A model generated the notes under the pieces. That model did no database searches. It had not been told where the DNA came from and worked only from the letters and a program-made list of their open reading frames with translations. A DNA stretch of 64,000 nt, taken from Fulvia fulva. Its lineage: Eukaryota > Ascomycota > Dothideomycetes > Mycosphaerellales > Mycosphaerellaceae. A program made the position numbers and the translations under genes. The stretch is from contig NC_063013.1 of NCBI RefSeq assembly GCF_020509005.1, positions 558,001 through 622,000 on the forward strand. The letters run 5' to 3'. How positions within the stretch are numbered: the stretch's first letter is position 1; each line of letters starts with the position of its first letter. Below are positions 18,154 to 62,854 of the stretch, piece by piece.

Positions 18154-19689
18154 ATGGGTTTCGGCAAGATCTACTCCTACGAGGTGTGTCCTCCCACGAA
18201 ACCCCCACCGCCCAAGCATCTGTAGCTTGCGGCGTATGGAGAAACTTGCGCTGACACGCCTTCCACTCGTAGGGCAACCCACGCACCACCGCCATTCTCG
18301 CTGTTGCCAAGGCCAACGGCCTCGACCTCGAGCTGGTGCACACCGAGCCTGGCAAAGTCAGCGACGACTACAGGAAGATCAACAAGCTCGGCAAGGTCCC
18401 AACTTTCCAGGGCCAGGATGGCTACGTCCTGAGCGAGTGCATCGCCATTGCCATCTACCGTCAGTCTCCCATATCCATACGCAGGAAAAGCCGCCGTCTG
18501 CACATACCACCCCACCTTGCAATGATGAAAGATCAGTATAAACAGTTATCCCTGTCTGAAGACTATTGTTGAGAACGTATTCACACTCTGATTGCAATCC
18601 ATCATACAAGCTGCTACACTCACACAACTCTGGTGGGCATCGACTGACAGCATCATCTTAGTCACCTCCCAGAACGAGAAGACCGCACTCCTCGGCAAGA
18701 CCAAGCAGGACTACGCATCCATCCTCCGCTGGATGTCCTTTGCCAACACCGAGCTCCTCCCCGGCCTCGCTGGCTGGTTCCGTCCGCTGCTTGGCAAGGA
18801 CGCTTACAACAAGAAGAACATCGAGGACTCCAAGAAGCGCACCCAGAACAACATCAAGGTCCTCGAAGACCACCTCTTGGTCAACACCTACCTCGTTGGC
18901 GAGCGTCTCACCCTCGCCGACATTTTCACCGCCGCCATCGTTGCACGTGGCTACGACTACGTCTTCGACAAGGCATGGCGCGCACAGAACCCAACCGTCA
19001 CTCGATGGTTCGAGACTGTAGCCAACCAGGAAATTTACAAGGCTGTTGCCGGTGAACTCAAGTTCATTGAGAAGGCCATCCCAGACACTCCACCAAAGAA
19101 GGAGAAGGAGGATAAGCCAAAGGCTGAGCAGTCAAAGAAGCAGGAGAAGAAGAAGGAGGTCGCGGAAGAGGAGGAGGATGAGCCAGTTGAGAAGCCAAAG
19201 GCCAAGCACCCTCTCGAGGCACTACCAAAGGCAACCTTCGTCCTCGACGACTGGAAGCGCAAGTACTCCAACGAAGAGACCCGTGAGGTCGCTCTTCCTT
19301 GGTTCTGGGAGAACGTCAACTTCGAGGAGTACTCCATCTGGCGTGTCGACTACAAGTACAACGACGAGCTCACCATGACCTTCATGACGAGCAACCTGGT
19401 CGGTGGTTTCTTCGCCCGTCTCGAGGCCAGCCGCAAGTACCTCTTCGGTGCCGCGTCCGTCTTTGGCGTTACCAACGACAGCGTCGTTCGTGGTGCCTTT
19501 GTCGTCCGCGGCCAGGAGGCCCTCCCAGCTTTCGATGTCGCACCAGACTACGAGAGCTACGAGTTCACCAAGCTCGACCCGACCAAGAAGGACGACCAGG
19601 AGTTTGTCAACGACATGTGGGCGTGGGACAAGCCAATCGATGTCAACGGCAAGCCATACGAGTGGGCTGACGGCAAGGTCTTCAAGTAA
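18154..19689 (+). CDS. translation elongation factor eEF1B gamma subunit
   Basis: Exons 18154-18183, 18273-18459 and 18662-19689 (414 residues). The 10-codon first exon and the 202-nt second intron were chosen because they give continuous family sequence (YSYE-GNPRTTAIL; IAIY-LTSQNEKTALLGKTKQDYASI). Domains are an N-terminal GST-like fold (1 to about 80), GST C-terminal helices (about 90-200), a Lys/Glu-rich linker (PPKKEKEDKPKAE...) and the conserved EF1G domain to the end (about 255-414, with WRVDYKYNDEL and FFARLEASRKYLFG). The protein is a scaffold of the eEF1B exchange complex that recharges eEF1A with GTP. Yeast equivalents are CAM1/TEF4. Confidence 0.95.
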
Positions 19690-21842: not shown

Positions 21843-23990
21843 GCTGTCTGTCTCTGTGGTGTTGCACTTCAAAGAGGATGTTGATGTTCGACTTTCAGGC
21901 AAAGTGGAAAAGAAGCTTGGTATTTCTGAAATTGATTGTGCGGAAGTGAGTGCGGCAGAGGCGCAAGCGCTCGGATCACATGCAAACGCTGACATGAGGA
22001 AGGAGTGCCGAGCTGGAGTTCAATGTACTCTTGCGAATTCTAGCTCCGTCTAAATGAATGTCCGCGAATTTCGTTGCCTCCACCTGCTCAGTGAACTCAT
22101 CCTGGTTCGGTGAGAATGCCAGACTGTCGTCGATCAGGAGTTGTGCGAGTGACACGAACATCGTCAGAAGTAGTGACTGCCATCCTTTGGTGCGGTTCTT
22201 ATTGCTGTGGTGGAAGATGGTGATGAACTTGATAGAGTTCACCTCTGACCCACAAATTTATAGCAATGTGCATCGGTGCCTCCTGGAATCTGTCCTGGTG
22301 GAAGTCGAGCTGCTCGTCTCGTGTTGCGGAGTCCAGACTCGCATGCCTTCTTGGAGGCTCCCACCGCCAAGGTCCCTGATCATCTCTGTGCAGCCCTAAG
22401 GTAATGGTCAGTCGGTCACAGTCGCAATATTTCGGCAATACCGCAGCGATTCACTCACGAATCTCATCAGGTTGAGGGTCTTTAGCTGAGCCAGAGATCG
22501 AGGGCGAGCACCGTATCATATCAAGACAGTCTGGGAGTAACGCGGAGAGACAAGAGGGCGATAATCGCCTCTGCAAATACTGGAAGACTCTCCGGGGACA
22601 TTCGAGAAATATCCCCCGACCTCTGCAGGCTCAACGTCGACTTCATCCCAACACACATCATCGCAGTGCTCTGGACTGTGATCAATCTTGTCTGCAGGAC
22701 TTGGTGTACCGAAGTTCAGGTCGAATGCTGCACTCTTTCACGATCTTCGTCTGCCGTTGCTCCACTCGTCGAACTCCCACGACACTGCCAAGATCTGCAT
22801 AAGTGTCCACCTGGCGTTCTCGATGGAGGCGGGCTGATGAGACGTGTCGTTGCACAGCCGGCAGTATATCGTAGAGGTAGCAGCACGGCGCAGTAAGTCG
22901 CTTATGGTATTGCACTGCTTCAGCCTCTCGCTCGGAGTGGCTGAGAGGGTCTGGGGTGGTGCAGGTGATGTGTATCACGCAGTCTGAGTCTTTCGTGCAA
23001 AAAGAATAACAATCGCCCTTCTGCATGATCGCACCTAGAATCGAACCCAATCTAAACCGCAAAAGAAGACCTACCCAATCCAATATCACCGCTTTTGGTG
23101 ATATCAGATTTAAATAGGTTCAAGAAACAGGACTCATTGATGAGATGAGCTGAACAACCTAATCTCCTATGCTTGGGGCGGGAGATTTACTCGCTATGGT
23201 CTTGTTTACGCAGAGCGTTCACTGCGGGATGTCTTGCCTGTTTGCTTGATTGGTAATCGTAGATAATAAATGACATATATAGCTCAGAGCGGGAGCACCC
23301 GGGGCGCATGTGAAGATCTGAGAATTTCAGATTTGATGATAGTCAGGGTTCCGGGTAGAATGATAGGCTTGCAACGACTTCTGCTCTTGTTGTTGCCCAC
23401 GGATGACGGCGAGGAAACGAGTGACGGGACGCTAAGCAAGATGGGTAGTGGTCGATGGAGGTCGCAAGATGGAGGAGAGAAACGAGGGATGAAGAAGCTA
23501 CTTGAAAGAGCGGAAACCACCATGGTGTTCAACGATGCAGTGTCATCCAGCCATTACTGCTCACTCTTGATGCGTCTCTTTCTTGTTTGACTCGAGTCGG
23601 TATTGTTTACCACTCCGCACTCGTAGCATCGATATAGCGTGCATGGCACCCTGCACGACAATCCGCGATCTGCAACATGCACGGTGAAGTAGCTCTCTGG
23701 CACAATATCGAAAGACTTAGTCCGCATCATCGTATCCTCCAGTATATCGCTGGCAGCTCGACCCCGTACAATCCCGCGAGCACTCACCTATGGCCGCATT
23801 GGTGCCTCGAGCGCAGCAATCGTATTGACCTTGATGGTGCCATCGTCCGGATTCGCACGCTCGAAAGTATGTGACTGCGTACCGTATCATCCTTTGATCA
23901 CTATCCCAGATGGACGTCGTAGGCTGCGGTACTTTGCCTCGGCGTCCTGATTAACATGTGGTTTCGTAGGACTCCTGATCTAGCCATCTC
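21843..23990. other. 2.1-kb stretch without a supportable gene
   Basis: Several ORFs of 60-135 codons overlap on both strands. None has a start, signal or splice logic that I trust. Two Cys-containing fragments on the minus strand (around 23026-22900 and 23690-23860) lack signal peptides. The segment may hold remnants of decayed genes. Confidence 0.35.
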
Positions 23991-61361: not shown

Positions 61362-62239
61362 ATGGGCATTCTGGAGAAGCTTGGTGGCGTCGCCGTTGAC
61401 CTTTCGGTCATGGCCTGGGACAATGCCATCTTCATCGCCAATCTTCTCACCCCGAAACTCAAGGAAGGAACAGTAGTTCCAAAGGGAGCCCCGGGACACA
61501 ATCTCACGTGGCCAGAATACGTTCCACCAACGGAGGGCGACTCTCGCTCTGCATGTCCCATGCTGAACGCGATGGCCAATCATGGAATCCTGCCTCACGA
61601 TGGAAAGAACATCACCTTCAAAGACCTCAATCAAAAAGTCCGCGAGACCTTCAACTTCGCCTCTTCCTTCTGTTTCTTCGTGCCAAACTTCTCCGCCCGG
61701 TTCCTGAACAAGTCCTACTCGACTGATCGATTCGACCTCGAGGACCTGAGCATGCACTCTGATAAGGCTATTGAGCACGATGCCAGTCTTACACGACAGG
61801 ATGCCGCACTCGTCAAGGACCAAAGCAAGCCCGATCTGAAGCTGGTCCATGACCTGTTGAAGGAAGCGAGTGGAAAGACACCAGACGGGTATCCTCTGAT
61901 GACCAAGGCCGATCTATCCCGAGCACTTTCCAAGCGACGAGCAGATGCGAGGAAGTCGAACAGAGAGTATTCCGAGTCTTTCTTCCACAACATGTTTGGA
62001 AGTGCAAAGTACGTTGTGACCATATTCGAACACAGCTCTTGCTAATTCTTGACAGCTCCGCAACCATGTTGACCATCTTCGGTGGACGTATTGAGGACTT
62101 GGGGCCTATGTTGACTGAGGAGCGATTCTCCGAGCATTGGGAGCCACGTGTCTTGGACCGCTACGGCCTGACCATGGCCAAGTTCAACGGCACAGTCCTG
62201 CCGGTGGAGATGAAGATAGACCCAAAGAAGTACCAGTGA
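61362..62239 (+). CDS. heme-thiolate peroxidase (chloroperoxidase/unspecific peroxygenase family)
   Basis: Exons 61362-62008 and 62056-62239 (47-nt intron, phase 2), 276 residues. The axial heme ligand is in SACPMLNAMANHGILPHDG (Cys65), the family's PCP-type motif. The acid-base motif is present as IEHDASLTRQD (E138-H139-D140). The short form, with the catalytic Glu-His-Asp version, resembles short fungal peroxygenases/chloroperoxidases. Some N-terminal hydrophobicity (AVDLSVMAWDNAIFIANLL) exists, but a cleavable signal peptide is not clear, so secretion is uncertain. These enzymes use H2O2 for halogenation or oxygen transfer. The natural substrate is unknown. Confidence 0.9.
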
Positions 62240-62593
62240 GCGTGAGAATGGCTTTGAGGCGACGATATTTGCGTTCGAGAGGGTGGTAGAAGATGCTTTC
62301 ACGGCCATGTCGAGCAGCTGCGAGTGGCTCTTTGGAAGCACTGTCGCCAGAAGAAGTTGAAATTAAATCCAGATGCTTGAACACTGGAGTTTGAGACATG
62401 CTGTGCGCGATCTCAATGTCGTCAGGACAGAATATGTATGACTCTAGAGTGTGCAATGTTGTTGTCGAGGCACTGTGATTGTTCGTGCGAGCAAGTCAGT
62501 TTCTCCCACTCAACCTCTTCCCGGTCGGCCGCGGCACATTGATACGTAGGTACATATTGTTCTACCAAACGTCTGCCCCATCAATAACCACAC
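62240..62593. other. spacer upstream of the interrupted tRNA gene
   Basis: No gene supported. I saw no obvious Pol II promoter element close to the tRNA start, but I cannot exclude one. Confidence 0.4.
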
Positions 62594-62838
62594 GGTCGAT
62601 TAGCTCAGGTTTGTCGCAACAGCCAGCAAGGTTTCGTGAGCATTTGACTAACATCGTTCGCAGTTGGTTAGAGCGTATGTTCTCACATGACATCGGGCCC
62701 TCGAGCACGCAACTGACATCGCATCAGGTGGTGCTAATAATTGCTTGTTAACGCCAAGGTCGCGGGTTGTAAGTTGGATCCCAAGACCGTCTCACCACGA
62801 TCCCGTCTAATACATACCAGCGACCCCCTCATTGACCA
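62594..62838 (+). tRNA. tRNA-Ile(AAU) split by three GT-AG intron-like insertions plus an 11-nt anticodon-loop intron
   Basis: tRNA segments are 62594-62608, 62664-62674, 62728-62739, 62751-62768 and 62821-62838 (74 nt joined). Acceptor stem GGTCGAT pairs with ATTGACC (one G-U). D-stem GCTC pairs with GAGC, with loop AGTTGGTTA. Anticodon stem TGGTG pairs with CGCCA around CTAATAA (anticodon AAU). T-loop is TTCGACC with stem GCGGG/CCCTC (one C-U mismatch). Insertions: 62609-62663 (55 nt, GTTTGT, TGACTAAC, CAG), 62675-62727 (53 nt, GTATGT, ACTGAC, CAG) and 62769-62820 (52 nt, GTAAGT, TCTAAT, CAG). A further 11-nt insertion (62740-62750) lies between positions 37 and 38, the normal tRNA intron site. 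The joined sequence matches my recollection of fungal tRNA-Ile(AAU). Functionality is unproven. Confidence 0.85.
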
Positions 62839-62846
62839 TTGAATTA

Positions 62847-62854
62847 TTTTTTTT
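62847..62854 (+). terminator. T8 run, Pol III-type terminator of the tRNA gene
   Basis: Eight T residues start 8 nt after the discriminator base of the interrupted tRNA, the usual place for a Pol III terminator. Confidence 0.7.

Follow-up and report, generated by a model that had tools for sequence, protein, structure and literature searches.

Three spliceosomal-type introns in a tRNA-Ile(AAU) gene of Fulvia fulva, and interrupted tRNA genes across its genome

Can a transfer RNA (tRNA) gene that is cut into pieces by introns of the spliceosomal type still give rise to a tRNA? This question is raised by a locus on the forward strand of a 64,000-nucleotide (nt) stretch of Fulvia fulva DNA (NC_063013.1, positions 558,001 to 622,000), which we call the window. 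A preliminary description of its positions 62594-62838 proposed that five blocks join into a tRNA-Ile(AAU), that three large interruptions have the looks of spliceosomal introns, and that the gene either needs both the spliceosome and the tRNA endonuclease or is a pseudogene colonised by mobile introns. Nuclear tRNA splicing and messenger RNA (mRNA) splicing are taught as separate pathways. Our analysis points to a working gene: with a probability of about 0.88, this is likely a functional tRNA-Ile(AAU) gene, which RNA polymerase III would transcribe; the spliceosome would then cut three introns out of the transcript and the tRNA endonuclease a fourth.

The tRNA-Ile(AAU) gene of the window

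How well do the pieces fit together? Joining 62594-62608, 62664-62674, 62728-62768 and 62821-62838 yields 85 nt, for which ARAGORN gives a cloverleaf that holds an 11-nt intron, while a custom cloverleaf scorer counts seven of seven pairs in the acceptor stem, four of four in the D-stem, five of five in the anticodon stem and four of five in the T-stem. Both agree with the cloverleaf made of five blocks and its one C-U miss in the T-stem, and the coordinates first proposed for the blocks proved exact. ARAGORN sets the 11-nt intron two bases early and so prints 'Asn(att)'; by the 37/38 rule the anticodon is AAU and the tRNA an isoleucine tRNA.

Followed along the forward strand, exon 1 (62594-62608, tRNA positions 1-15) holds the 5' acceptor strand, positions 8-9, the 5' D-stem, the start of the D-loop and the first part of box A, which is split by intron 1 (62609-62663, 55 nt) between positions 15 and 16 of the D-loop. 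Exon 2 (62664-62674, 11 nt, positions 16-25) brings the rest of the D-loop and the 3' D-stem, and intron 2 (62675-62727, 53 nt) follows at 25/26. Exon 3a (62728-62739, positions 26-37), with the anticodon AAU at 62736-62738, is separated by the 11-nt intron at 37/38 (62740-62750), the usual site of the tRNA endonuclease, from exon 3b (62751-62768, positions 38-55), which comprises the 3' anticodon stem, the variable region, the 5' T-stem, the start of the T-loop and the first part of box B. Intron 3 (62769-62820, 52 nt) splits box B at 55/56 in the T-loop, and exon 4 (62821-62838, positions 56-73) completes the T-loop, the 3' T-stem and the 3' acceptor strand and ends in discriminator A. Eight T followed by GC, resembling a polymerase III terminator, stand at 62847-62854, 8 nt past the end of the tRNA, and a weakly TATA-like TACATATT lies about 40 nt upstream of the gene (62551-62558).

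The signals described for the three large interruptions can be read directly in the sequence: GTTTGT, CTAAC and CAG in intron 1, GTATGT, CTGAC and CAG in intron 2, and GTAAGT, CTAAT and CAG in intron 3. For comparison, one protein-gene intron of the window (62009-62055, 47 nt) runs from GTACGT to GCTAATTCTTGACAG, and the reading frame stays open when it is removed. Only the 11-nt intron sits at 37/38, as does the canonical intron of the tRNA splicing endonuclease (TSEN); the three large introns depart from that type in having spliceosomal signals and in their positions, one in the D-loop, one at 25/26 and one in the T-loop.

Without splicing, ARAGORN reports no tRNA in the window, none reaches the Rfam gathering score, and a covariance model built from 16 spliced tRNAs finds no match at an expectation value (E) of 1 or below. 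Could splicing produce a cloverleaf by chance? We enumerated GT..branch..AG introns on both strands of the window, spliced out every subset and ran the products through ARAGORN. Matches arose at the tRNA-Ile locus alone, as four overlapping variants on the forward strand and none on the reverse strand, the variant with all three introns removed being the best. Decoys with junctions shifted by 4-9 nt gave no match in 20 runs.

Interrupted tRNA genes across the genome

Does the gene have company? The genome searched comprises 14 contigs with 67,169,167 bp, the window lying in contig C2. The Race 5 assembly of Cladosporium (Fulvia) fulva is listed with the same 67,169,167 bp in 14 contigs and with no gaps (PMC9453070, Table 1); telomere-to-telomere chromosomes number all 14 according to its abstract and ten according to its introduction (PMC9453070). 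Among named proteins, those nearest to a Ca-ATPase encoded in the window come from Zasmidium cellare (84%) and Pseudocercospora fuligena (81%). An anticodon-arm pattern for Ile(AAU) (GGTGCTAATA, a gap of 0-30 and ACGCC) occurs at three places in the genome and nowhere in a reversed control, which puts the Ile(AAU) genes found at three, each of them interrupted. One of the two paralogues on C1, L030, has introns at 15/16, 25/26 and 55/56 just as the window gene does and encodes an identical mature tRNA, while the introns of the two genes share identities of 0.59, 0.69 and 0.66 (random intron pairs: 0.56, standard deviation (sd) 0.04); its 37/38 intron is also 11 nt long and differs in sequence. 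The other, L029, keeps the first two introns at 15/16 and 25/26, has a T-arm free of introns in which the stem is changed (GCGAG/CTCGT), and carries a 37/38 intron of 21 nt, again of different sequence.

No intact Ile(AAU) occurs among the 22 matches above the cut-off of a genome search with the Rfam tRNA model RF00005. Twenty of these (L001-L020) are uninterrupted, L021 is an interrupted Thr gene, and L022 has no solution from ARAGORN or from the intron-aware finder introduced below. A BLAST-like genome search with the joined 74-nt tRNA returned no candidates, an empty outcome that is uninformative, and the pattern GGTTCGANNCC was swamped, with 495 places in the genome against 421 in the control.

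A second case concerns the initiator. Two initiator anticodon-arm patterns gave three places (ten in the reversed control), none of them a tRNA, and nine places (33 in the reversed control), one of which is the tRNA locus L108; an initiator T-arm/terminator pattern gave one place and one in the control. The exons of L108 are AGCTGAGTGGC, GCAGCGGAAGC, a third one containing a 29-nt 37/38 intron, and GATCGAAACCGAGCTCAGCTA, separated by three GT-AG introns of 55, 54 and 55 nt. Spliced, they form a 72-nt initiator-like cloverleaf with A1-U72 and every stem paired, which ARAGORN calls tRNA-Met(cat); in the unspliced locus no tRNA was found. We first spotted this solution by reading the sequence, and a relaxed version of the finder later reached the same one. 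L108 is the only initiator tRNA-Met gene found in the genome by the patterns used.

Further patterns widened the set. An intact-D-arm pattern gave four places against one in the control, all four being Lys(CUU) genes with one to three introns elsewhere in the gene; an interrupted-D-arm pattern gave nine against five, with five of the nine real; and an intact T-arm followed by TTTTTGC gave 68 against three. The intron-aware finder, which enumerates introns by their signals and scores the spliced cloverleaf with a cut-off of 28, was given 128 segments. Sixty of them were T-arm sites, the other eight such sites lying in loci already covered, and the rest were the two strands of 34 loci. At scores of at least 28 it returned 26 interrupted segments, L026 and L033 being one locus, and 13 uninterrupted ones. 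Including the window gene, the interrupted set holds 26 genes with 48 introns, and 37/38 introns are additionally present in 23 of the 26; the elongator Met-like L028, with an odd variable region, is a doubtful member. For two Glu genes, L068 and L074, the finder's best acceptor leaves three extra nucleotides, and the next acceptor gives the same tRNA as in L048 and L062.

How often does the finder err? In 640 decoy runs it produced an interrupted solution six times, on each occasion at a tRNA locus (L007, L021, L023 twice, L025 and L060). Over 205,510 bp, searched on both strands, interrupted solutions at or above 28 were confined to tRNA loci, and one decoy round over the same length gave three, at L023 and L025. 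Relaxing the cloverleaf on 45 T-arm sites that had no prior solution yielded one weak solution. A second relaxation on 48 segments took L027, L061 and L108 above 28, adding L108 with its three introns and L061 with two, one of which is without a clear branch motif; two introns of L027 were counted by hand, the relaxed finder's extra upstream intron being taken as spurious.

In several families every copy seen is interrupted: Ile(AAU) with three, Lys(CUU) and Glu(CUC) with four each, Thr(AGU) with three, Thr(UGU), Phe(GAA) and Asp(GUC) with two each, and the single initiator. Three Arg(ACG) genes are interrupted as well. Ser(AGA) is mixed, with L102 interrupted and L004 intact, as is Trp, where L075 is interrupted and L013-L018 are not. 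Other genes are free of such introns, among them Cys, Val(AAC), Ala, Gly, Tyr, Leu(UAA), Thr(CGU) and Arg(CCG). The loci L013-L018 are six near-identical tRNA-Trp-like copies on six contigs with the same near flanks, as if they were part of a repeat.

In another group of tRNA-like loci a T-arm and a terminator go together with long insertions close to the anticodon arm. It comprises L092 (three in tandem), L057 (two), L052, L065, L076, L084, L091, L096, L099 and L101. ARAGORN calls them tRNAs with introns of 35-102 nt, and the covariance model of spliced tRNAs matches some of them, with E down to 2.6e-13.

Transcription, splicing and competing explanations

How would a tRNA be made from such a gene? 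T-run terminators and frequent upstream TATA elements suggest that RNA polymerase III would transcribe the window gene. The spliceosome rather than the endonuclease would then remove the three large introns, as their GT..branch..AG signals and the lack of bulge-helix-bulge structure indicate. Because these introns interrupt the D- and T-arms, spliceosomal splicing should precede folding, trimming by RNase P and RNase Z, and endonuclease cutting, and the tRNA endonuclease would be expected to take out the 11-nt intron at 37/38. The proposal that the gene needs both machineries gains support from the interrupted Ile(AAU) copies, the interrupted initiator, and exons that are kept while introns have diverged.

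Which polymerase is involved is a matter on which the signals have to be weighed. The window gene lacks contiguous internal boxes A and B, as the introns at 15/16 and 55/56 split both; it is therefore not an ordinary polymerase III gene with an internal promoter. Introns divide box A in 11 of the 26 interrupted genes and box B in 14, and the 100 nt upstream of the window gene lack an exact TATA, both of which count against polymerase III. Spliceosomal splicing is normally coupled to RNA polymerase II, and one may imagine that this enzyme transcribes the same genes, broken internal promoters and all, that the spliceosome removes the same introns, and that the tRNA is cut from a capped transcript.

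The flanks argue otherwise. A run of five or more T lies within 60 nt downstream of 26 of 27 interrupted genes; 14 of those were found through the TTTTTGC pattern, and among the 13 interrupted genes found in other ways 12 have such a run, against 1.8% of random 60-nt stretches. The excess of T-arm sites followed by TTTTTGC over the control bears on the same point. TATA stands at -20 to -70 in 17 of the 27 (random stretches: 5.6%), and the 13 uninterrupted genes have the T-run in nine cases and TATA in nine. Within introns T-runs are few, although the effect is weak: four or more T occur in two of 51, where shuffling expects 6.9 (sd 2.3), and five or more in none, where 1.7 are expected. Fission yeast U6 small nuclear RNA (snRNA) is a polymerase III transcript. 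That its gene has an intron is stated by a title in the reference list of PMC5832005. We infer transcription by polymerase III, with the upstream element doing more of the work, and regard transcription by polymerase II as unlikely, while taking it seriously. The U6 snRNA itself has a single match in this genome, full length and uninterrupted, at C4:1169208-1169308 on the forward strand.

Could the tRNA splicing endonuclease, or a variant of it, remove the extra introns at their many positions, so that the GT-AG look would be incidental? The properties of the introns make this very improbable. The 48 introns measure 50-62 nt (median 54), all with GT..AG by construction of the finder; 28 have CTAAC as the branch motif, 12 CTGAC and eight others (including CTAAT three times and CTGAT once), the branch A sits 7-15 nt before the 3' end, and the ends are CAG (32), TAG (10) or AAG (6). 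So short and fixed a branch distance and a length of 50-62 nt are not expected of the tRNA endonuclease. A comparison with paralogues uses the sequence of an intron-free copy to fix the limits in the other copy. For each of the 14 introns delimited in this way there is a possible GT..AG placement, the number of placements being one to seven; this test is free of the finder's bias for the limits only. A bulge-helix-bulge core with a 4-bp central helix was found in none of the 48 by a simple test (mean pairs 1.46, against 1.38 for re-paired ends), which scores low on the 37/38 introns too (mean 1.72) and is thus not decisive alone. Removal by the endonuclease draws on the 37/38 introns of most interrupted genes, as mentioned above, and on introns at non-canonical positions in archaea, a red alga and nucleomorphs, where some genes have three (PMC4090602). 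We dropped it as the main explanation over the lacking bulge-helix-bulge cores. None of the 48 introns lies within the acceptor stem, and the shortest internal exons, of 5 nt, occur in three Lys genes: in the Lys(CUU) genes L033, L034 and L035 the exon TCGTG is flanked by two spliceosomal-type introns.

The preliminary description's own alternative, a tRNA pseudogene invaded by introner-like introns while intact genes do the work, did not hold up. Here the comparison between paralogues is informative. Across 18 pairs the mature exons share a mean identity of 97.6%, whereas 33 pairs of introns at the same position average 0.62 (random pairs 0.56), with the Glu 22/23 introns reaching 0.84; identity in the upstream 80 nt is 0.46-0.62 between paralogues and 0.50 (sd 0.03) between unrelated genes, and so not in all cases at the chance level. 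RNAalifold folds 16 spliced tRNAs into a cloverleaf of 20 pairs, 19 of them with changes on both sides, and one such stem change spans introns in Lys L032 (GAGGG/CCCTC against GTGGG/CCCAC). The covariance model from the 16 spliced tRNAs recovers the tRNA of each of the 20 loci L001-L020 with E<=1e-7. Taken together, exon identity, both-side stem changes and the covariance match suggest exons that were kept as tRNAs across drifting introns.

Mobility of the introns, on which the pseudogene idea leans, does leave traces. Introner-like elements are reported for F. fulva (PMC4457414). The 22/23 introns of three Glu(CUC) genes (L048, L068, L074) are 74-87% identical to one another, and the intron at 52/53 in L074 shares 78-80% identity with those at 22/23 in L074 and L068, so that an intron was apparently copied to a new site inside a Glu tRNA gene. 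Outside the Glu family, just two short matches (16 and 13 nt) join introns of different genes at E<0.01 among the 48. Presence and absence differ between the paralogues L021/L023, L049 and L051/L078, L050/L097, the Lys genes, and the window gene and L030/L029, differences that point to intron gain or loss.

Is an uninterrupted isoleucine tRNA available all the same? L019, above the RF00005 cut-off, is an uninterrupted Ile(GAU) in the readings of both ARAGORN and the finder, with discriminator G and a 37/38 intron of 63 nt. GAU is not the usual nuclear isoleucine anticodon, and we doubt that L019 is a nuclear isoleucine tRNA. If charged with isoleucine, it could read AUU and AUC, and this reading limits the claim that isoleucine decoding as such needs interrupted genes. 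With exons identical in the window gene and L030, no intact Ile(AAU) in the RF00005 matches or at the anticodon-arm places, and the sole initiator gene found being interrupted, we dropped the pseudogene reading and give it only a very slim chance. That the window gene is an isolated oddity is ruled out by the genome searches, which found other interrupted tRNA genes.

Several further observations weigh against the working-gene reading and its extension to the genome. The one stem mismatch of the window tRNA, C50-U64, recurs in L030, and L029 has a stem mismatch at 7-66. The RF00005 search scored 63 of 1234 candidates, so intact copies may be missed, and initiators whose stems pair differently or whose 37/38 intron is longer would go undetected by both anticodon-arm patterns. 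By design the finder admits no introns other than those with GT-AG ends and a branch-like motif; this tilts the outcome towards the spliceosomal reading and makes the signal counts partly a product of construction. In the relaxed run one of 144 decoys exceeded 28 (L089, 31.36) at a locus where the real junctions gave nothing. Of the 68 T-arm/terminator sites, 44 have no finder solution; some look like chance occurrences, others tRNA-like with long insertions. Some finder-negative loci are read as uninterrupted by ARAGORN, among them Lys(UUU) L092 and Glu(UUC) L096, and so is L076, as a Met(CAU) without A1 or an initiator T-loop. Finally, the finder gives L056 a score of 28.0 as an Arg(ACG) gene with no interruption, where ARAGORN sees Pro.

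What do the interrupted genes mean for the cell? Since no uninterrupted Ile(AAU) or initiator was found in an assembly that was reported to have no gaps, we predict that the spliced products are essential, most firmly so for the initiator. We consider it probable, going by the sequences, that the spliceosome is needed for translation in this fungus, in that a large part of its tRNAs would be polymerase III transcripts matured by spliceosome and endonuclease, with introns gained, copied and differentially kept, probably across the lineage and partly hidden from annotation. Among the genes concerned would be the only initiator found, together with all the Ile(AAU), Lys(CUU), Glu(CUC), Thr(AGU), Phe and Asp genes that were found.

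Known systems and consequences

Where else have such introns been seen? Our literature search, which covered subscription papers and preprints thinly, found no report of spliceosomal introns in tRNA genes. Introns of the mRNA type, with GT-AG ends and a CTRAC branch site, are known from fungal U3 small nucleolar RNA (snoRNA) and U6 snRNA, likewise small, structured and non-coding, and some U3 paralogues have the intron while others are without it (PMC5832005). The same paper, of 2017, knows of no other small structured RNAs that are often interrupted, and counts two introns in only four of 138 intron-bearing U3 genes (PMC5832005). Unlike U3 and U6, the many genes described here encode tRNAs and have up to three such introns each, in addition to the 37/38 intron. 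Ascomycete ribosomal RNA (rRNA) genes, too, have spliceosomal introns. An 18S rDNA title of 1993, in the reference list of PMC11782384, attests to this mRNA-type intron in a non-coding RNA gene; rRNA, in contrast to the products of the small tRNA genes, is a long RNA made by polymerase I.

Like the present genes, some tRNAs of a red alga, of nucleomorphs and of archaea have several introns each, in D- and T-arms (PMC4090602). Those of the Guillardia nucleomorph are 3-24 nt long and attributed to the splicing endonuclease (PMC4090602), whereas here they span 50-62 nt, run from GT to AG, have a branch site and are without a bulge-helix-bulge core. Non-canonical tRNA introns of eukaryotes are supposed to be rare in that source, with endonuclease-type cases in nucleomorphs and a red alga (PMC4090602). 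The introner-like elements of Dothideomycetes share with our introns the taxonomic group, the species and gain at new positions, as in the one tRNA intron family found at two positions. Introners of F. fulva include 99%-identical copies (PMC4457414), while most tRNA introns here share no detectable sequence; many near-identical copies were not found among the 48 tRNA introns, to which the comparison was confined.

If the reading is true, both splicing pathways act on the same molecule, and protein synthesis depends on pre-mRNA splicing. Several questions would become testable now: how the spliceosome recognises a polymerase III transcript, how a tRNA gene functions when introns divide its A and B boxes, what the smallest workable exon is, given the 5 nt of three Lys genes, and by what route non-coding genes acquire introns. 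In this fungus tRNA genes can escape standard tRNA searches, which may have a bearing on gene counts in related fungi. In Zymoseptoria tritici, a tRNAscan-SE-based study of 2017 found no isodecoder tRNA for 11 codons, and its codon-optimisation scores were near zero for this species and for Passalora (Fulvia) fulva (PMC5315462); 44 tRNA genes were given for the dothideomycete Peltaster fructicola in 2020 (PMC7181583). Hidden interrupted tRNA genes might contribute to the counts of Zymoseptoria tritici and Peltaster fructicola, though the 81 tRNAs predicted for Passalora sequoiae speak against a simple shortage (PMC7640444).

Two other non-coding loci of the window deserve mention. On the reverse strand, positions 22990-23400 (L055) resemble a locus on C4 (L072), both having TATATA upstream, a T-arm-like motif and a T-run; the window copy has no Rfam match up to an E of 0.5, and the pair is possibly an unknown polymerase III RNA. 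On the forward strand, a C/D-box snoRNA, snoR38, reaches the gathering score at 18516-18598.

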